Part shown: positions 44,265 through 63,436 of the stretch, one piece after another
Position numbering within the stretch: the stretch's first letter is position 1
Layout: each line of letters starts with the position of its first letter
Assembly: GCA_028287505.1 (NCBI GenBank)
Contig: JAQBPN010000087.1
Coordinates: 1 to 64,000 of the forward strand
Length of the DNA stretch: 64,000 bases
Direction of reading: 5' to 3'
Origin: Fibrobacterota bacterium
Lineage (GTDB): Bacteria > Fibrobacterota > Fibrobacteria > UBA11236
Position numbers and translations under genes: made by a program
Notes under the pieces: generated by a model
Told to the model about the DNA's origin: nothing
Database searches by the model: none
The model's input: the letters and a program-made list of their open reading frames with translations, nothing else

Positions 44265-45170
44265 ATGGATTGGAACAGGTATTGGCTCGATCGGTTGACC
44301 CGCGAATTGGCCCAGCGGAACTTCGCCGCCTCCACCCGGGACAATTACACCGCCGCCCTGAAGGCATTCCTCACCGCCCATCCCGGAACCCCTTCGCGCC
44401 TCGGCCCCGATGCCATCGGGCGATACCTTCTGCAATGCAAGGAAGACCGTAGCCTGGGCGCCTCGACGGTGAACCTGATTCTGGCCGCACTCGTTTTCTT
44501 CTATCAACATGTCCTCAAGGCCCCCCATTGCATTGCAGGGATTCCGCGGCTGAAGGAAGACAAGAAACTGCCCAGCGTACTCGGCGTCACCAAGGTCAAA
44601 GACTTGCTGGAAAGCCTGGCCAATGAAAAACACCGGATGATGCTGTCCTTGGCCTACGGATGCGGTTTGCGCGTCTCCGAAGTCGTCAGCATGAAATGGA
44701 CGGATTTGGACTTCGATCGGAGTGTGCTTTATGTCCGTTTGGGCAAGGGACGTAAAGACAGGGTTGTGATGTTGCCCACCAGCCTGGTTGAGGATTTGAA
44801 CGGGTACAGGCAACGGAATCAACCAATCACGTACCTCTTTGAATCCCATCTGGCTGGAAAGCCTTTGTCAAAGAGGACGGTTCAGGCGGTATTCGAGAAG
44901 GCGTGCGAGAAGGCGGGGATAGTACATAAGGGCGGGATCCATTCCTTGCGACATTCGTTTGCGACACATTTGTTGGAGGCGGGGACGGATTTACGGTTCA
45001 TCCAGTCCATGCTGGGGCATAGCAGTTCGAAGACGACGGAGAGGTACACGCATGTTACGACTGGGAATGTCCGGCGGGTGGTGAGTCCTTTGGACCGGTT
45101 GAGGGCGGGGGGTGTAGGGGGTGTAGGGGGTGGGAGGGGGGTGGGGTGCGCGGCAACGGTTCTAGGGTGA
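44265..45170 (+). CDS. Tyrosine recombinase next to an attC-like array
   Basis: A 301-residue tyrosine recombinase that probably moves the downstream cassettes. SAM-like core-binding domain (about 8-90: RELAQRNFAASTRDNYTAALKAFL) and catalytic domain with the full set of residues: Arg136 (GCGLRVSE), Lys in GKGRKD (160-165), His226/Arg229 (HSLRH), His252 (LGHSS) and Tyr261 (TERYTHV). The end VVSPLDRL resembles IntI (SPLD). However, between MLPTSL and the AFEKA-like helix it lacks the roughly 30-residue segment, including the I2 helix, that distinguishes IntI from XerC/D. So it is an IntI-like but not canonical integron integrase. The 22-residue Gly-rich tail is odd. The gene points into the array. 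The start at MDWNRYW is chosen by homology. Confidence 0.9.
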   Translation: MDWNRYWLDRLTRELAQRNFAASTRDNYTAALKAFLTAHPGTPSRLGPDAIGRYLLQCKEDRSLGASTVNLILAALVFFYQHVLKAPHCIAGIPRLKEDKKLPSVLGVTKVKDLLESLANEKHRMMLSLAYGCGLRVSEVVSMKWTDLDFDRSVLYVRLGKGRKDRVVMLPTSLVEDLNGYRQRNQPITYLFESHLAGKPLSKRTVQAVFEKACEKAGIVHKGGIHSLRHSFATHLLEAGTDLRFIQSMLGHSSSKTTERYTHVTTGNVRRVVSPLDRLRAGGVGGVGGGRGVGCAATVLG

Positions 45171-45191
45171 AGGAAATGCTCACCCTAGAAC
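45159..45191 (+). terminator. Perfect 12-bp hairpin overlapping the recombinase stop codon
   Basis: GTTCTAGGGTGA and TCACCCTAGAAC are separated by 9 nt. The left arm contains the TGA stop of the recombinase. No U-tract follows. It may terminate transcription, but because the attI-like core starts 3 bp later it may also be part of the recombination site. A G-rich run (about 45107-45146, repeated GGGGTGTAG) precedes it. Confidence 0.6.
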
Positions 45192-45193
45192 TA

Positions 45194-45207
45194 GTTGTGA
45201 GCAATAC
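45194..45207 (+). other. attI-like core site
   Basis: GTTGTGAGCAATAC follows the hairpin. It matches the right end of the attC-like site at 54480 (GTTGTGAACAATTA) at 11 of 14 positions, and the common form GTTRTGNNCAAT of several other sites. It lies between the recombinase and the first cassette, where attI is expected. Crossover would be predicted between G45194 and T45195. The AT-rich leader at 45208-45397 shows no clear promoter for the cassettes. Confidence 0.6.
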
Positions 45208-45397: not shown

Positions 45398-46234
45398 ATG
45401 CTTATTGAAAGTGCATTTCTTAAGCTCCCGGAGCTTTTGCTTTCAAGCCACAATCATAGAGGAAATGTTGAAGCCATGGTTGTTCATCATCTTGTGACTG
45501 GGCTTCAAATGGAACTCAACTCAAGATCCATTCCGTTTGCTTACAATCATATCACCGTTGAGGTGCCGTACCCCAAACAGAGTCGCATAGGAAGCGTATT
45601 TCGGGCTGACCTCTTGTTTGATTCGAACGGAAGCATACCTAGCATCGCCCGTCTAGATCAATATGGGTTTAAGGAAAAGCAATGGGTTGAAGCCAAGGGC
45701 TATTTTTCAAAAGGTAAGACTACTCCGGCAACAACTCAAAATATTGGAAGAGTGATAAAGGATATCATAAGACTCTGTCTTCTTCCAGAAGAGTTGCAAG
45801 GCGGAATCAGGCAGAACGGTAGGTATGTTCTTCTAGTATTTGATAAGCATCCAGGCAAGTACCTTGCATACTCTAACCGCGAGTGGCTTCGACGGATTTT
45901 CGAGGATCGGACACCATCAATTAAGATTAATTTGGAATCAGAAAAAACTTCGCTGATCCAATCAATAGTTGGACAGAGCAATTTAAATTCGCAGATGGAG
46001 CTTTCACTGTCTATTCTTCATTTTGAGCCTTCAACAGAGATTCCTTTTCCTGTGTATTGGGGGTATTTACTAAGAATAGACAAGTTCTCAATATCAATAA
46101 ATAATAAAGTTATAACATCTAGCGGAGAGGTTCAGGAACGATGGGATCGGGATAAGGTTTTGGCTTTGGAAGCGGTAAGAAATGAGTTTGCAAATTTGTT
46201 AGGCAAAGATGAGGGAGATATTCCCGTGGTGTAA
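45398..46234 (+). CDS. Cassette 1: possible PD-(D/E)XK nuclease-fold protein
   Basis: A 278-residue soluble protein of unknown family. D71 in FRADLLFD followed by E98 and K100 in WVEAKGYF gives the spacing D-x26-ExK, as in PD-(D/E)XK nucleases; an upstream Glu (NVEAMVVHHL, 23-32) fits too. The C-terminal half (QMELSLSILHFEP...FPVYWGYLLRIDKFSISI) is beta-rich. A restriction- or repair-like nuclease is inferred, and integron cassettes often carry such genes, but this would need structure prediction. It is the first cassette, so the one best placed for expression. AAGGA precedes the ATG. AT-rich compared with the chromosome. Confidence 0.7.
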   Translation: MLIESAFLKLPELLLSSHNHRGNVEAMVVHHLVTGLQMELNSRSIPFAYNHITVEVPYPKQSRIGSVFRADLLFDSNGSIPSIARLDQYGFKEKQWVEAKGYFSKGKTTPATTQNIGRVIKDIIRLCLLPEELQGGIRQNGRYVLLVFDKHPGKYLAYSNREWLRRIFEDRTPSIKINLESEKTSLIQSIVGQSNLNSQMELSLSILHFEPSTEIPFPVYWGYLLRIDKFSISINNKVITSSGEVQERWDRDKVLALEAVRNEFANLLGKDEGDIPVV

Positions 46235-46374: not shown

Positions 46375-46667
46375 TCACAACGAGCCCCAGTAGGGGCCCA
46401 GGGGGCATGCTCCGCATTGCCGGGCCGCAAATGGCCTGGAAAGGCTGCGCGGCAATTCAGAATCCGCTTCGTGCGCTAACTGCGGAGCAGGTCTTTGCAG
46501 TTGGTCTTCGTTAGCACCTCAGCGGTTCTTCATTGCACGCTGCGGGCGCTCGCTCCGGGGGTTAGAGAACCCCACTCTGCTCACGTCCTCGCGTAGCACG
46601 CAAGTCTTTCGCCTTGGTCTCTTCTTCGGCCTTCCCAGGCCACTTCCTACTAGGGCGAACGTTGATG
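46375..46667 (+). repeat. Giant attC-like site A (293 bp)
   Basis: Left box TCACAAC (46375-46381), right box GTTGATG (46661-46667). Outer arms AACGAGCCCCAGTAGG and CCTACTAGGGCGAACGTT pair with small gaps. Inner arms TGGCCTGGAAAGGC and GCCTTCCCAGGCCA also pair. The right half contains the conserved 70-bp core (CATTGCACGCTGCGGGCGCT ... CACGTCCTCGCGTAGC). Confidence 0.75.
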
Positions 46668-46965
46668 TGCAATTGTCGGGGGCTACTCCATCCCAGCGGG
46701 CTTCGTCCGTGGTTCCCAGGACGAAATCACGCTGTAGGTATTCCCCTCTTGGGCCTGGATGACTGCTCGCAGGCGAGCCAGGCCCAAGAGGGGAATACCC
46801 GTAATATCATCCTTCTGTCAATTCCGGTCTGTGGATGATATTACGGGGATGGAGTGCCAACGGTCACGTTAAGCTTTGCGTGGGCACTCCGTGCCACAAC
46901 AGCTTAACGGTACCGCCAATCCCGCCAACTCGGCAGGCCGCTACGCATCTGCCGCCCTTCGGGGC
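46668..46965 (+). other. Cassette 2: no gene, nested palindromes
   Basis: I find no credible gene. Outer arms GGCTACTCCATCCC (46681-46694) and GGGATGGAGTGCC (46846-46858) enclose two perfect hairpins: a 22-bp stem (46737-46758 with 46778-46799, starting GGTATTCCCC) and a 15-bp stem (46798-46812 with 46833-46847, CCCGTAATATCATCC). A third, CGTTAAGCT (46867-46875) with AGCTTAACG (46901-46909), contains GTTAAGC and GCTTAAC, exact integron core-box consensus sequences, around an inner GGCAC-TCC-GTGCC hairpin. Possible roles are a structured RNA, remnants of attC sites, or a foldback element. Confidence 0.7.
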
Positions 46966-47241
46966 ACTCAACAAGGTCCATTAAGCTTCGCCGGGATTTC
47001 CAATCCCGCTCCGGGGCTCCGCCCAAATGGCCTTTGGAAGCATCCCGGCAATTCAGGCAAAGCCTCGACTTCACTGACTGACTTCGAGGTCCAATCTGAT
47101 AGTCTACGTCAGTTCGTCTCTGCTTACCTTCATTGCACGTGGCGGGCGCTCGTTACGGGGGCGTATCGCCCCACTCCGCTCGCGTCCTCACGTATCGGGA
47201 TTGTTTCCAAAGGCCACTTCATAATGGACCTACCGTTGCGC
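46966..47241 (+). repeat. Giant attC-like site B (276 bp)
   Basis: Left box ACTCAAC (46966-46972), right box GTTGCGC (47235-47241). Outer arms CAACAAGGTCCATTAAG and ATAATGGACCTACCGTTG pair. Inner arms TGGCCTTTGGAAGCA and GTTTCCAAAGGCCA pair. The conserved core lies at about 47126-47200. The downstream leader (GAAATGGGCCTCGAAAAG ... ATTTTTTGGGGGCGGGAA) is shared with the leaders after sites E and F. Confidence 0.8.
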
Positions 47242-47396: not shown

Positions 47397-48056
47397 ATGA
47401 ATCCAAACGATGAAAAACGAGTAATGGTTCTTCGGTTCTTGTACGACACGAGGGCTATGCGCTACGTAGAACATGTACAACGGAATAACCCCTACGTGCT
47501 CGTGAATCAATTTGTGGGATTGGATGCTGGGCAGGCCCGGAATGTACTCCAATACTTAGAAGGAAAGGGCCTTGTCCAAATTGAAGTAACCGATGTCGTA
47601 CAGCTAAAGCAAAACGAAAAGGGTCTGGCTAACGACCTTCAAACGAAGAAATTTTACCGCATTACGGCTACTGGGGAAGAATTTATTGAAGAGCGGAAAA
47701 AGGAGGCGTCGATATTTCGTCAAAAAATTGAAAGTGAGGCAAGTATGAACATAACAAACATTGGTGGTGTAACTGTTGTTGGAAACAATAACATCGTTAA
47801 CGCGAAATTTGGTGACACCTACGAAAAATTGGAGAATTTCAAAAAGGCCGTACTTTCGAGTAACGGCCTTTCTACCGAAGAGAAAATAAACTGCTCATCG
47901 GATATAGAGACAATTCAAAAGCAGCTTTCAAAGACCAGCCCCTCCAAAGAAATTGTTCGTTTGGCTTGGTCCGCAATTGAAGCGAGCGTAGTGCTACACG
48001 ATTTTGGTTCGGTAGTTTCGGAACTTGGAAAACAAATCCATGGAATGTTTACTTAG
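47397..48056 (+). CDS. Cassette 3: winged-helix protein with NNIV-type beta segment
   Basis: A 219-residue soluble protein. The N-terminal 105 residues look like a winged helix-turn-helix (FLYDTRAMRYVEHVQRNNPYVLVNQFVGLDAGQARNVLQYLEGKGLVQIEV..., in which KKFYRITATGEEFIEE is the wing). Then residues 117-137 read MNITNIGGVTVVGNNNIVNAK, a motif I have seen in hypothetical proteins of mobile and defence-like loci, and a helical C-terminus follows. The frame is open from 47133, but the region before 47397 belongs to site B and its leader. The ATG at 47397 has GGAATAAAA before it. No function is known. Confidence 0.7.
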   Translation: MNPNDEKRVMVLRFLYDTRAMRYVEHVQRNNPYVLVNQFVGLDAGQARNVLQYLEGKGLVQIEVTDVVQLKQNEKGLANDLQTKKFYRITATGEEFIEERKKEASIFRQKIESEASMNITNIGGVTVVGNNNIVNAKFGDTYEKLENFKKAVLSSNGLSTEEKINCSSDIETIQKQLSKTSPSKEIVRLAWSAIEASVVLHDFGSVVSELGKQIHGMFT

Positions 48057-58240: not shown

Positions 58241-58511
58241 GCATAACAAGCGCCACGAAGGCCGGTTGCAAGCACCCGGCGCAAATGGCCTTCGCAGAGT
58301 GCACGGCCGTTCGCTCTAAGCTTCGGGCTGGCGCTGACTCTTTTACTTGTCTATCCAAGGGTTCACTGCAAAAGCGTTAGCTGGCCCTCAGCTTGAGCTC
58401 ACGGCACGCTGTGGGCGTTCGCTCCCGGGGACGGTAGCGCCCCACTCCGCTCACGTCCTCGCGTATCGCGCATCCCTTCTCAGGCCACTTCCTACTGGGC
58501 GAACGTTATGT
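58241..58511 (+). repeat. Giant attC-like site J (271 bp)
   Basis: Left box GCATAAC (58241-58247), right box GTTATGT (58505-58511). Outer arms CATAACAAGCGCC and GGGCGAACGTTATG pair; the inner arms are only partly paired. The conserved core is at about 58400-58475 (GCACGCTGTGGGCG...CACGTCCTCGCGTATCGC). Confidence 0.75.
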
Positions 58512-58596
58512 GCAAGTTTGGGGACTGGTTGCGATGTGGAACATATAAATGAACATGCCGGAAGGAATGAAAGTAAAGCCCATCTTTGAATCGAAC

Positions 58597-58615
58597 GCAC
58601 CATTCAAAATGGTGC
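58597..58615 (+). terminator. Hairpin GCACCAT-TCAAA-ATGGTGC
   Basis: A 7-bp stem with a TCAAA loop, followed by TTGTTTAATAAAAT. It lies 116 bp before the small exported gene at 58732 and is a near copy of the hairpin at 54632. Confidence 0.5.
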
Positions 58616-58731
58616 TTGTTTAATAAAATATGTTGGGTATCTTACGGAATGAATGAAGTCAAGCTTCGTTCCATAGGCCTTAGGCCTTGAGCTGTTTTGC
58701 TTTAACACTGTTTCATTTGAAAGGATATACC

Positions 58732-59064
58732 ATGCGTAAAAAGATTTTCTTCACCTTTGCATTGATTTTATCGGCAGCGACTTCCTCATTTTCGGGCGGG
58801 ACGTGTACCGCAAAAATCGGTTCCATTTTTACTGAAGGCTATAATACCGGTTGGCCGGGGGATGTAATCATTACCGTTAAATCCACCTCTGCACTCTGTA
58901 ACGGTGGGAATTTTGTTATTGAAAATGCGCAAGCTGGAAAGGCAACCGTTCTTTCCAATGCTTTGGCTGCAGCGGCACAAGGTAAAGACGTTTCAATCAA
59001 CTGGCTAGATGCACAGAAGAAAGATGTTTACGCCAAGATTCAGTGGTTCTCGGTGGTTTATTAG
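58732..59064 (+). CDS. Cassette 11, gene 1: small exported protein, 110 aa
   Basis: Signal peptide KIFFTFALILSAATSSFSGG, then a single domain: CTAKIGSIFTEGYNTGWPGDVIITVKS, CNGGNFVIENAQAGKATVLSNALAAAAQGKDVSINWLDA. Two cysteines probably form a disulfide. The G-K-A-T-x-L-x-x-A-L-A-A-A-x-x-G-K-x-V pattern links it to the 54743 protein and to a broad group of small exported OB-fold-like proteins. The ATG at 58732 has AAAGGATA before it; the longer TTG frame is not needed. A good intrinsic terminator follows. Confidence 0.75.
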   Translation: MRKKIFFTFALILSAATSSFSGGTCTAKIGSIFTEGYNTGWPGDVIITVKSTSALCNGGNFVIENAQAGKATVLSNALAAAAQGKDVSINWLDAQKKDVYAKIQWFSVVY

Positions 59065-59077
59065 GATTTTAGGAGAC

Positions 59078-59127
59078 CACCCCAGTAAAATTCGGATCCT
59101 ATGCGGAATTTTTTGGGGTGATTTTTT
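59078..59127 (+). terminator. Intrinsic terminator after the small exported gene
   Basis: CACCCCA (59078-59084) pairs with TGGGGTG (59114-59120); inner AAAATTC/GGAATTTT bases extend the stem; ATTTTTT follows. It lies 14 nt after the stop codon. Confidence 0.75.
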
Positions 59128-59160
59128 CTCCGTTTTAAAAATATTGAAAAAGGATAGTCA

Positions 59161-59682
59161 ATGAAACCATTAATATTGCTGAGTTTATTCGCATCGATTT
59201 CCTTTTCGCAAACCAGCGAGATTGAAATGATTCAGGATTATTTGAGCAATGACAAAACCTTGGCTCCATTTGCCATAGGTGAATATGAGACAAAATTGGA
59301 AAATACTTTGGGCCCTACCCTTAGGGCCAGGGTTACCGGAAAAAGCAATTTGTTTCGTTTAAATGTCACGGCCATGAAGAATAAAATCGACCACGAATTC
59401 GGGAAAAAGTTTCCAAAAATTGATTTGAGCATCAATTTGTTAAGCGATCAATATGTTCGTAAAATCGAAATCACTGGCGTTGATTCTACTTTGGGGCGCA
59501 TCATTCTCAGAGGGGATGTCAAAGGAATGCCTAATTCCGAAGTCCAGTTGCTTTACTACCAAAACATAATCACAGGCCGGATTTCCCTGGGGGATAATGA
59601 ACACATTATACTTTTGCGGAGTACACCGGATGGCGTGACCGGCAGCTTTGAAGTCAATGCCAAGGACCTGAAGTATGACTAA
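59161..59682 (+). CDS. Cassette 11, gene 2: exported hypothetical protein, 173 aa
   Basis: Signal peptide KPLILLSLFASISFSQ. The mature protein is beta-rich (LGRIILRGDVKGMPNSEVQLLYYQNIITGRISLGDNEHIILLRST) with no family I recognise. AAAGGATAG precedes the ATG. It ends 30 bp before the metzincin gene on the same strand, so the two are probably cotranscribed; it could be a partner, chaperone or inhibitor of the protease, but there is no direct evidence. Confidence 0.7.
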   Translation: MKPLILLSLFASISFSQTSEIEMIQDYLSNDKTLAPFAIGEYETKLENTLGPTLRARVTGKSNLFRLNVTAMKNKIDHEFGKKFPKIDLSINLLSDQYVRKIEITGVDSTLGRIILRGDVKGMPNSEVQLLYYQNIITGRISLGDNEHIILLRSTPDGVTGSFEVNAKDLKYD

Positions 59683-59712
59683 GAATAATGAATCTAAAGA
59701 AAAGAGGGTTCC

Positions 59713-60552
59713 ATGAAAGTCGCCTTACGCTCATGTTTTATTATTGCCTTTGCTACTTTCCTGGAAATGGGGAACGCGCAAACGGTTTCGTCAGCGCTGA
59801 TCATGTATACCGATGATGCGCGTGCCGGGGCTGGAAGCACGACAGCGATTCAGAATGAAATCATAGCATCGGTTAATCAAGGCAATCTTGCCCTCGCCAA
59901 TAGCGGGACAGGAATGACCATTCAGATTGCTGATATGCGTGAAATTTCCGTCGATGAAACTAAATATGGCACATTGTCGGCTCTGAATAATGACCTATCC
60001 AATCCTGCAAGTGCGACGTTCAAAATCGTGCATGATATCAGGAATCAGGTCTCTGCCGATCTTGTTTTTTTGGTTGTGGAAGGAATCGAGGCAAACGGTC
60101 TGGCATTCCAAGTGTGCGGAAGCGGATTGACGTGTGACAATACCTTTGAAAAATACGCATTTGCGAGTGGACAACGTAGCCTTGTAGTCAGCTTTCCCCT
60201 GATGATCCCCCATGAATTCGGTCATGTCATGGGGCTTCGGCATGATAGAACCCGGGATTGTGGATCCGAGGCTACTACCTGCGCGACGGGCGCCTTTCCC
60301 TATAGCTACGGCCATATTGACCCAATTGCTCCTGTCGAATGGGGAACCGTTATGGCAGGCGGAAGACCGTTCGGCCTTGTAAACTACTTTTCCACCCCGA
60401 ACCGCACTCATCCCACCACGGGTCAGCCCTTGGGCATCGCAAACGTAAGCGATGCTTCACGCTCGTTAACGAATGTCGGCTGGATTGTGGCGGATTGGAG
60501 GGTGCCGTTGATAAATCAAACGATTATTACGCCCCTGCTTCTGGAAAATTAG
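59713..60552 (+). CDS. Cassette 11, gene 3: exported metzincin-type zinc metalloprotease
   Basis: A 279-residue exported protease. Signal peptide (about 1-22, ending MGNAQ), then strands and helices ending in the full metzincin zinc motif HEFGHVMGLRHD (H167, E168, H171, H177), with a possible Met-turn at GTVMAGGRP near 212. This belongs to the reprolysin (M12)-like or related secreted families. Two cysteines at RDCGSEATTCATG probably form a disulfide next to the active site. AGAGGG lies 6 nt before the ATG. A secreted protease in a cassette array is unusual and could be degradative or virulence-related. Confidence 0.85.
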   Translation: MKVALRSCFIIAFATFLEMGNAQTVSSALIMYTDDARAGAGSTTAIQNEIIASVNQGNLALANSGTGMTIQIADMREISVDETKYGTLSALNNDLSNPASATFKIVHDIRNQVSADLVFLVVEGIEANGLAFQVCGSGLTCDNTFEKYAFASGQRSLVVSFPLMIPHEFGHVMGLRHDRTRDCGSEATTCATGAFPYSYGHIDPIAPVEWGTVMAGGRPFGLVNYFSTPNRTHPTTGQPLGIANVSDASRSLTNVGWIVADWRVPLINQTIITPLLLEN

Positions 60553-60610
60553 GCTAACAATGAATCCCACTGGCTCAGAACAGCCAAGCTTTCCATGGGC
60601 CTTGTTATAT
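60552..60610 (+). repeat. Possible degenerate classical attC inside cassette 11
   Basis: GGCTAAC (60552-60558) and GTTATAT (60604-60610) bound 59 bp; TAACAA and TTGTTA pair, and CCCACTGG with CCATGGG pair with one mismatch. If real, the 4.9-kb block J-K is two or more cassettes. The boxes deviate from consensus, so this could be chance. The stretch 60611-60952 has no other gene that I see. Confidence 0.35.
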
Positions 60611-60952
60611 ACGTTGTAGACTATGGGGAGCCCACGGATTGGAAATAAATGTTGAATGCAAATCTGGCGGTGTCCTGCCATTTTTGCATATCTATTCACT
60701 GCTTCGGGGCAAATTTGAAAGACCCTCTATATCTATCCAGGGAGTGCCGAGAAGGCACTTAGAAGTTGGGTCACTTCAGCCCGGAAAAGTCGCTTGGAGC
60801 CACTGAACCGCATCATCCGGATGGCCAAAGGATGGGTCCAAAAAATGGATAGTTCAAACTGGGCGCGCCCCGGAGCCAAAAATCCCAAACGCGTAATCCG
60901 CTTACCGGGATTCCCGCGGAACCAGGTTAGGCCTTGCATACGTCCTATCCTT

Positions 60953-61558
60953 ATGCGATTAGTACAACTCTCTGGCATCCTTGCGGCGCTCCTGTGTTCG
61001 GCCTGCGGCATGCAGAAGGATCCTTGTGATGACGGGCGGATGTTCAGCGATGGAAATTGCCATACCGAGGGCGAGAGCGGATACCGTAATCTGGTCTGGG
61101 TGGATTCGGCCACCGGCAGGTCCATGCGCCTGGATACGGCGAGTCACGTCGGCGAGCCATCGCGGTACCAGAATGACGGCAGCATATCGGAATCAAGATC
61201 AGGTTTCTTCCTCGACTCCGCCGCGGACGCGAACGGGTGCCGGCGGGCGGTGACGGCCCGGGACACCGGCTCCTGGCCGATGCGCGGCGGGGACACTTTG
61301 AGATGGTCAGGACTACGCATGCAAGGCTACCGTAAATCGGGTGGGTATCCGGAATGGGAACGGGATAATTCTTGCGGGGACGCGGACCTTCCCGGTGGCT
61401 ATGCTTGGATCACCATAACTGATCTCACTCGTTTCAGCGATGTCGAGGGGTCTAAACACGGTTCGGACTACACTTACGCCCTGGGCTATCGTTGGCCCGC
61501 TGGCCGCGTCGACGGCGAATACCACAGCCGAAGCTATACAGTTAAGAATAATTATTGA
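60953..61558 (+). CDS. Cassette 11, gene 4: lipoprotein of unknown function, 201 aa
   Basis: Lipoprotein signal MRLVQLSGILAALLCSAC (Cys18). The mature part has five further cysteines (DPCDD, GNCH, ANGCRR, NSCGD) and YRNLVWVDSATGRSMRLDTASHVGE. It belongs to no family I know, but the GSISESRSGFFLDS...RWPAGR pattern and end (AGRVDGEYHSRSYTVKN) suggest a small beta domain. GC-rich, so perhaps of more local origin than the genes before it. The frame to 60794 lacks a signal, and ATG 60953 is chosen for the signal peptide. Confidence 0.65.
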   Translation: MRLVQLSGILAALLCSACGMQKDPCDDGRMFSDGNCHTEGESGYRNLVWVDSATGRSMRLDTASHVGEPSRYQNDGSISESRSGFFLDSAADANGCRRAVTARDTGSWPMRGGDTLRWSGLRMQGYRKSGGYPEWERDNSCGDADLPGGYAWITITDLTRFSDVEGSKHGSDYTYALGYRWPAGRVDGEYHSRSYTVKNNY

Positions 61559-61567
61559 CGCAAAAGC

Positions 61568-61592
61568 CACCGAGCCGCTCTGTGCCTCGGTG
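61568..61592 (+). terminator. Hairpin CACCGAG...CTCGGTG after the lipoprotein gene
   Basis: Two complementary 7-bp arms with an 11-nt loop lie 9 nt after the stop. There is no U-tract. Confidence 0.45.
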
Positions 61593-61703
61593 TAAGCTCT
61601 CGCACTGTGGTAGCGTAGCAAGGCCCACATGGCTTTCCTTTTTGACTTGCCAAGTATTTTCTTAACGTGTTTATTCCCAAGAGCGACCAAAAAGGGGAAT
61701 ATC

Positions 61704-63032
61704 ATGCTTAGCTTCACAGCCGCTGCCGTGACCGTAGCCCTTCTTCCCGCCATCGTCCACTCTGCCACCAAGGAAACCTTACAAATCCAGATTGGGAAAG
61801 ATAAGGATATCCTGGACACCGTAACGATCGTGATCGAATATGACAAACCCCCGGAAGTCGCACATCCTAATGGGGTAAAGTGGGCAGATCTGGAAAAGGA
61901 TTCCCTCTGGGAGGATAATAACGGCCGGCATGTTCGTTATAACCACGCCTTTCTTGCTTCCATGGGTTCCCGTAAAGGGTATGGCTCTGATTACATCGAC
62001 TATACAAAGCGCGGAAGTGAGGAACCGGAATATTCCGCAGGCGTGAGTTTTATCTTCCCCGGGGATACTTTAGTGCAATTCAGCTGGGAACCCGTTCATA
62101 TGTATTTTTATCGTCAGATCGTTCCCTACGAAGAAACCGGATTTGTCTCTGGAAGTGAAGTGTATGGACAGGTTTCCCAGTATGTGAAAAGTGGAAGCGA
62201 AAATTTGACCCAAGGTCAATGGGCTCTTCTCCTCACCCGCAAAAAAGAAAGACCCATTGGCGAAACAAAACCGATAGTCTCCCTCAAGGAAACGTTACAC
62301 ATTCAGATAGGCAAGGATGAGGCCATCCTGGATACTGTAGTCCTTTGGATCGATTATGGGAAACCGCCGGAAATCGAGCGTCCTAATGGGGGCAATTGGG
62401 CGGATTTTGAAAAGGATTCCGCTTGGACCGATGACCTCGGTTGGTATGTTCGTTATAACCATGCTTTCTTGGCTTCCATGGGATCCCGGAAGGGGCAAGG
62501 CGGGGATTACGTCTCTTTATCTGCATTCTCCGAACAATTTAATGGTGAGCCGGAATATAGCGCCAATGTGTTCTTCTCCATTCCAGGGGATACAACCCTC
62601 CAGATTTCCTGGGACCCGAACCACATCGTGGAAAAGGCCGAGGCCTATCCCTTCCATAAGAGCGGATTTAAATCTGGAATGGAACAATTTGGAGAAGTTT
62701 CCAAGCGGGTCGGCAGTGGTGGCGAAAATTTGGCCCAAGGTCAATGGGCCAAGCTCCTTATCCGTGAGAATGGGTGGAGTGGCTTTGAAACAACTGGATC
62801 AATGGCTCTGCGCCCGGCCAAACAGGCCGGCCGAACTGATGGGTGGATTGTTCACTTGGCTCCGGGAACCGTGTTGCGGGCCCCGCCCGGGGCCACGGGT
62901 CTGAAGGTCTTGGATGTCCAAGGTCGCCTGCATTGGGAAAGCCGGAACCTGCGGGAAGGGACGCTGGTGATCCTGCCCGGAGAACTGCCCAAGGGAGTCC
63001 TACGGTATTACTGGCAATCCGAGCGTGGCTAG
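61704..63032 (+). CDS. Cassette 11, gene 5: exported protein with a duplicated domain
   Basis: A 442-residue exported protein. Signal peptide LSFTAAAVTVALLPAIVHSA, then two copies of a domain of about 170 residues (about 24-180 and 195-350). Paired motifs: ETLQIQIGKDKDILDTV and ETLHIQIGKDEAILDTV; YNHAFLASMGSRKG in both; VKSGSENLTQGQWALLL and VGSGGENLAQGQWAKLL. The C-terminal 85 residues (LKVLDVQGRLHWESRNLREGTLVILPGELPKGV) resemble FCB sorting or FlgD-like domains. AAGGGGAA precedes the ATG. I do not recognise the family; surface attachment is the likeliest inference. Confidence 0.75.
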   Translation: MLSFTAAAVTVALLPAIVHSATKETLQIQIGKDKDILDTVTIVIEYDKPPEVAHPNGVKWADLEKDSLWEDNNGRHVRYNHAFLASMGSRKGYGSDYIDYTKRGSEEPEYSAGVSFIFPGDTLVQFSWEPVHMYFYRQIVPYEETGFVSGSEVYGQVSQYVKSGSENLTQGQWALLLTRKKERPIGETKPIVSLKETLHIQIGKDEAILDTVVLWIDYGKPPEIERPNGGNWADFEKDSAWTDDLGWYVRYNHAFLASMGSRKGQGGDYVSLSAFSEQFNGEPEYSANVFFSIPGDTTLQISWDPNHIVEKAEAYPFHKSGFKSGMEQFGEVSKRVGSGGENLAQGQWAKLLIRENGWSGFETTGSMALRPAKQAGRTDGWIVHLAPGTVLRAPPGATGLKVLDVQGRLHWESRNLREGTLVILPGELPKGVLRYYWQSERG

Positions 63033-63175
63033 CCCGTCCGACCCCTCCTTTCTTCATTCTGAAAAGTATTTATGGTTGGAAAAACCTTCCACTAAACATT
63101 CAAAATGCATGGAACGTCATTGAGGCCCTGAAAACAAAAAGACCCTCCAAATAAAATAGAGGAGCCAGCAGGATC

Positions 63176-63436
63176 ACCCAACAGCTGCCAGTAGGGAACC
63201 CGCGGACATGCTCCGCATTGCGGGTTCGCAAATGGGTTGCGAGGTCTTCCTGGCAATTCAGCTAAAACTTCGAACGGTTCGAACTTCGCTTGGCGCCTAC
63301 GTCCGCTTGTTCTCCGTTTACCTTCATTACATGCTGCGGGTGCTCATTTCGGAGGCAGTAGCGCCTCACTCCATTCGCATCCCCGCATAGCGGGAATGGC
63401 CTCGCAGCCCACTTCGTACTGGCGCGAACGCTGTGT
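63176..63436 (+). repeat. Giant attC-like site K (261 bp), last in array
   Basis: Left box ACCCAAC (63176-63182, perfect RYYYAAC), right box GCTGTGT (63430-63436), in which the usual GTT is GCT, so it may be inactive. Inner arms TGGGTTGCGAGG and CCTCGCAGCCCA pair. The tail before it (GACCCTCCAAATAAAATAGA) resembles those of D, F and H. The core is GTGCTCATTTCGGAGGCAGT...CATCCCCGCATAGC. 63033-63175 holds only the tail. Confidence 0.75.

Follow-up and report, generated by a model that had tools for sequence, protein, structure and literature searches.

What does a cassette of an integron-like array carry when it carries no gene? The gene-less members of integron arrays are still poorly explained. 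The stretch of DNA analysed here (the window, 64,000 nucleotides from contig JAQBPN010000087.1 of a Fibrobacterota bacterium) contains one whose cargo pairs with itself over nearly its whole length, in a four-way junction followed by a single hairpin. The locus raises the question of whether such a fold could arise by chance and, if not, whether it works as RNA, as DNA or as the relic of another element.

An array of cassettes separated by attC-like sites

A profile search with nhmmer placed nine attC-like sites in the window, between 46375 and 63436, and a tenth lies just past it (C85:66743). These sites measure 255-293 nt from left to right box and share a consensus fold of 67 pairs, 44 of which are changed on both sides in a compensatory manner in at least one site; the sites are clearly conserved as a fold. 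In eight of the nine, the better fold is that of the bottom strand, as is also the case in the attC sites of integrons. Each of the six genomes of the genus contains the site core, which is absent from all others among 168 genomes of the phylum. Further attC-like sites were seen on contigs C59, C81 and C46 and in G001-G005.

The start of a cassette tends to complement the sequence that immediately flanks its own site on the left, over up to 27 nt in cassette 1, a length that reaches well beyond the 7-nt boxes. Across 13 inter-site intervals from this genome and one relative, none of 5000 permutations reached the observed sum of start/flank matches; one of these intervals spans a skipped site and a site may have been lost from another, and either circumstance would weaken the signal rather than create it. 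This complementarity fixes the cut at G^TT and thereby defines the units of the array as cassettes.

A cassette without a gene

The cassette of interest and its neighbours are arranged as follows:

45398-46234, plus strand: ORF of cassette 1, the upstream neighbour (ORF list)
46375-46667, plus strand: site A, attC-like, the upstream boundary of the cassette (nhmmer E 3e-58; right box GTTGATG)
46662-46965, no strand assigned: cargo of cassette 2, without a gene, which starts at the G^TT cut in the right box of site A and reaches the left box of site B (ORF list)
46966-47241, plus strand: site B, attC-like, the gene-less cassette's own site (nhmmer E 8e-73; left box ACTCAAC, right box GTTGCGC)
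47397-48056, plus strand: ORF of cassette 3, the downstream neighbour, with a weak match to the candidate defence family PDC-M14B (1.4e-8)

With an att site on either side and its own site at the 3' end, the gene-less cassette spans 574 bp (46662-47235), of which 46662-46965 is cargo and the remainder belongs to site B. We found no plausible ORF in it, the longest ones being fragments that each overlap with a palindrome or a site. A previous, sequence-only reading had proposed that the segment between two att sites is a cassette without a gene, and the profile matches on either side together with the ORF list bear this out; the extent it had given, 46668-46909, is indeed gene-less but too short, the true span running from the cut at 46661^46662 to the left box of site B (46966-46972). 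The segment is the gene-less cargo of a genuine integron-type cassette, in an integron-like gene array of a Fibrobacteria-type bacterium. Judging from the anatomy of the array, recombination at the G^TT cuts would move the cassette as a whole; the match between its own start and end is weak (GTTGATGTGC / GCACTCAAC, score 13) and not above other pairings.

The cargo forms a compact four-way junction

The palindromes of the cargo, which had been described as nested, were found with their arms in the positions originally reported, and are predicted to fold into the following elements, none of which is assigned to a strand:

46673-46928: weak closing stem P0, TTG+CGGG / CCCG+CAA, enclosing all branches
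46681-46858: four-way-junction element, made of the outer stem and hairpins H1, H2 and H3 (palindrome search and DNA fold)
46695-46733: hairpin H1, 39 nt, imperfect, 4+2+7+3 bp
46737-46799: hairpin H2, a 22-bp perfect stem (46737-46758/46778-46799) with a 19-nt loop
46798-46847: hairpin H3, a 15-bp perfect stem (46798-46812/46833-46847) with a 20-nt loop
46861-46915: hairpin H4, separate and 3' of the junction, with GTTAAGC at 46868-46874 and GCTTAAC at 46902-46908

The outer stem consists of 10+3 bp, namely ten perfect pairs (46685-46694/46846-46855) plus GGC/GCC at 46681-46683/46856-46858. Two bases are common to H2 and H3, so that 13 pairs of H3 form alongside H2. No unpaired base is left between H1 and the outer stem, between H2 and H3, or between H3 and the outer stem, and only 3 nt are free at the junction (46734-46736); a junction packed this tightly, without a loose base on three of its sides, is more in keeping with a single evolved unit than with stray palindromes. 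For the excised circle, the prediction is that the cargo closes as one domain beside the attC domain.

The long perfect stems had already been singled out as notable, and our calculations place them far beyond chance. Apart from H2 and H3, the whole 64 kb window contains no perfect hairpin with an arm of at least 13 and a loop of at most 60; a uniform-composition estimate gives an expectation of 2e-7 at 22 bp and of 0.0035 at 15 bp. The lowest-energy 180-nt window of the entire stretch lies at the cargo palindromes. DNA-fold z scores are -11.2 on the plus strand and -11.5 on the minus strand, and RNA-fold z scores on the two strands are -8.9 and -9.1. With a single sequence and no homologue for covariation, it is this improbability, together with the geometry, that suggests selection on the fold.

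H4 carries the two motifs that had been taken for exact att boxes. GTTAAGC and GCTTAAC do fit the generic formula GTTRRRY/RYYYAAC, but none of the nine sites uses either as a box, and with 3 occurrences in the window against an expected 4.1, GTTAAGC shows no enrichment. Their reversed order, GTT...AAC, is confirmed, and since such an inverted repeat is read identically on the opposite strand, neither strand presents it as an attC. The presence of the two motifs would suit the fused att-site remnants that had been suggested, or else a mini-cassette with reversed boxes; the profile found no attC similarity between sites A and B at E<=1e-3, and with the order of the boxes wrong and other boxes in use in the array, we regard this origin as very unlikely.

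The outline of the fold, with an outer inverted repeat, a small stem-loop and long perfect hairpins, also resembles the a1-msr-msd-a2 layout of a retron RNA, which would be copied by a reverse transcriptase, and an AGC follows the first arm (46695-46697). However, there are two long hairpins rather than one, and a search for reverse transcriptase (PF00078) found none in this 98.7% complete genome while detecting its positive controls, which makes a retron-like element the least credible of the explanations weighed here.

A single copy without credible relatives in the sequences searched

The cargo occurs once in the 6.07-Mb genome, a draft of 130 contigs. A search for homologues, which the sequence-only reading had proposed, revealed no credible DNA relative in 60 related genomes or in 168 genomes of the phylum, with nothing outside the window beyond chance matches of 25-27 nt. 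A single-sequence covariance model likewise gave no credible relative in the phylum, recovered only the cargo itself, on both strands, in its own genome, and returned one chance match among 85 loci around related integrases. By similarity or exact words, the methods on which these absences rest, phages held no relative, plasmids gave one 35-nt chance match only, and viral contigs contained none of the exact stem, loop and junction words of the cargo; a search of genome contigs for the H3 hairpin found none either.

These results bear on three further explanations. Identical hairpins scattered through the genome as simple REP elements had been named, together with a missing transcript, as what would refute the earlier reading, and what we found instead is the single copy just described. 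REP and REPIN elements were accordingly set aside, as they require many copies. Like the cargo, REP/REPIN and MITE palindromes are non-coding palindromic DNA, but the cargo differs from them in being single copy and in showing no visible target duplication.

A captured palindromic mobile element, a MITE-like relic in which the outer stem is the terminal inverted repeat and the inner palindromes are the interior, matches the locus in several respects. The 13-bp terminal inverted repeat GGC(T)ACTCCATCCC / GGGATGGAGTGCC delimits 178 bp, as such an element would require, the element is non-coding, and its GC content of 0.585 stands against about 0.41 in the ORFs of the neighbouring cassettes. Yet the flanks, CGG on the left and AAC on the right, show no target-site duplication, and a relic of this kind sits poorly with a single copy in the genome and no credible copy in the 168 phylum genomes, phages or plasmids. 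On balance, we consider capture of a mobile element unlikely.

Since a sequence without relatives has no independent confirmation, and the genome is a 130-contig draft, the palindromes could in principle be an artefact of assembly or amplification. The clean order of site, cassette and site argues against this, as do the three different palindromes with distinct loops, which are unlike a single fold-back chimera, and an artefact is in our view highly improbable.

What the cargo may do

Gene-less cassettes with a regulatory role have been described in other arrays. In Vibrio, most of those tested have promoter activity (PMC11014356), and the ORF-less cassettes of oral Treponema include promoters (PMC6557892). 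The cassette studied here likewise has its own recombination site, lacks an ORF and sits in an array; those cassettes are shown promoters, whereas the present cargo combines an extreme fold with no promoter-like signal, our promoter and terminator scans having found nothing above chance in it, although promoters of this kind are reported to escape prediction in silico (PMC11014356). A text search of the Vibrio study for hairpins, palindromes or secondary structure gave no hits (PMC11014356). A further comparison is with sRNA-Xcc1, an sRNA from a Xanthomonas integron cassette that is cited in PMC6557892: the product of that cassette is an RNA rather than a protein, which could be the case here too, although the present cargo has no known transcript, homologue or target.

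It is indeed possible that the cargo encodes an RNA, as had been suggested. Rfam assigned no family at its curated cutoff (the best match, mir-2041, reached 37.7 bits against a required 70 and is a generic hairpin match), and a tRNA search of the cargo found none. The reading that we tentatively favour, while giving it somewhat less than an even chance, is that of a gene-less cassette with a structured regulatory cargo, which acts in cis on the transcript of the array or is processed from it. This reading draws on the fold beyond chance, the geometry of the junction, the cassette context, the lack of an ORF and the regulatory gene-less cassettes known elsewhere. If the array were read through from upstream, the cargo might separate the genes of cassettes 1 and 3 by a stretch of very stable structure, where it could act in cis as a structured leader or as an insulator that would shield the 3' end of the upstream message and damp read-through; alternatively, it might be processed into a small RNA.

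The strand properties of the fold temper this preference. Folding energies are nearly equal on both strands (-146.0 versus -145.8), so that no sense strand is marked, and only two of about 70 core pairs are G-U, which gives little indication that an RNA has long been under selection. Taken together, the missing strand bias and the near absence of G-U mean that a role at the level of DNA, or a young palindrome, would fit almost as well. The palindromes might act as cruciforms or hairpins in extruded or single-stranded DNA and, for example, help the neighbouring recombination site to fold, stall replication or bind a dimeric protein. Perfect Watson-Crick arms that fold without strand bias, and the single domain predicted beside the attC domain in the excised circle, are in keeping with such a role, as are the att sites of the array, which are folded DNA themselves, and the second attI-like site, a palindrome that is perfect over 19 bp. 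Nevertheless, none of the other cassettes examined has such palindromes, which implies that the array does not need them, and the cargo is without att boxes; we consider a DNA-level function rather unlikely.

Beyond the structured regulatory cargo that we favour, a bolder proposal is that the cassette represents a new class of non-coding mobile cargo, in which a four-way-junction RNA or folded single-stranded DNA is the selected payload, in an array whose integrase lacks a domain thought to be needed for folded-site recombination. We consider this doubtful. A cassette with a perfect multi-branched fold as its cargo would mean that structured non-coding elements, too, are exchanged between arrays.

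An integrase without the additional domain heads the array

The head of the array comprises two features:

44265-45170, plus strand: tyrosine recombinase, closest to integron integrases and without the additional (I2) domain
45154-45200, plus strand: attI-like palindrome at the start of the array, CAACGGTTCTAGGGTGA ... TCACCCTAGAACTAGTTG

The best NCBIfam match of the recombinase is to the integron integrases (TIGR02249), at 206 bits against a cutoff of 265, and its best stretch ends at residue 276. Aligned to the Vibrio enzyme 2a3v, it lacks the counterpart of chain residues 176-242, where the additional domain of IntI lies. This domain is regarded as the feature that distinguishes IntI (PMC9024848) and has been described as the innovation for the recombination of single-stranded, folded sites (PMC7790495). 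The array resembles the IntI/attI/attC system in having an integrase beside a start site, an array of cassettes and foldable AAC...GTT sites, with the bottom strand folding better in most of them. It differs in the length of its sites, about 255-293 nt, and in an integrase without the domain that defines IntI, and by the strict definition, which asks for an integrase with the additional I2 domain, it is, as judged from this alignment, not an integron. The integrase nevertheless adjoins sites that are clearly conserved as folds, and this pairing of an enzyme lacking the additional domain with long, fold-conserved sites gives the array a wider importance. Related integrases were seen in Fibrobacteria, Bacteroidota, Paenibacillus, Treponema, Cloacimonadota and others (L029-L108).

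The attI-like palindrome (TTCTAGGGTGA ... TCACCCTAGAA) exists in two copies, the one in the window and one on contig C59 (L015:4374-4418), where it stands at the start of a second array as a perfect 19-bp hairpin flanked by GCGCAAC and GTTGGGC; no integrase ORF was seen there in the stretch examined. The last interval in the window (58505-63182) is long, at 4.7 kb, and its two ends do not match, so that a site may be lost there. Within an ORF at 61629-63032, a direct repeat of about 230 bp, 75% identical, occupies 61769-61997 and 62285-62513.
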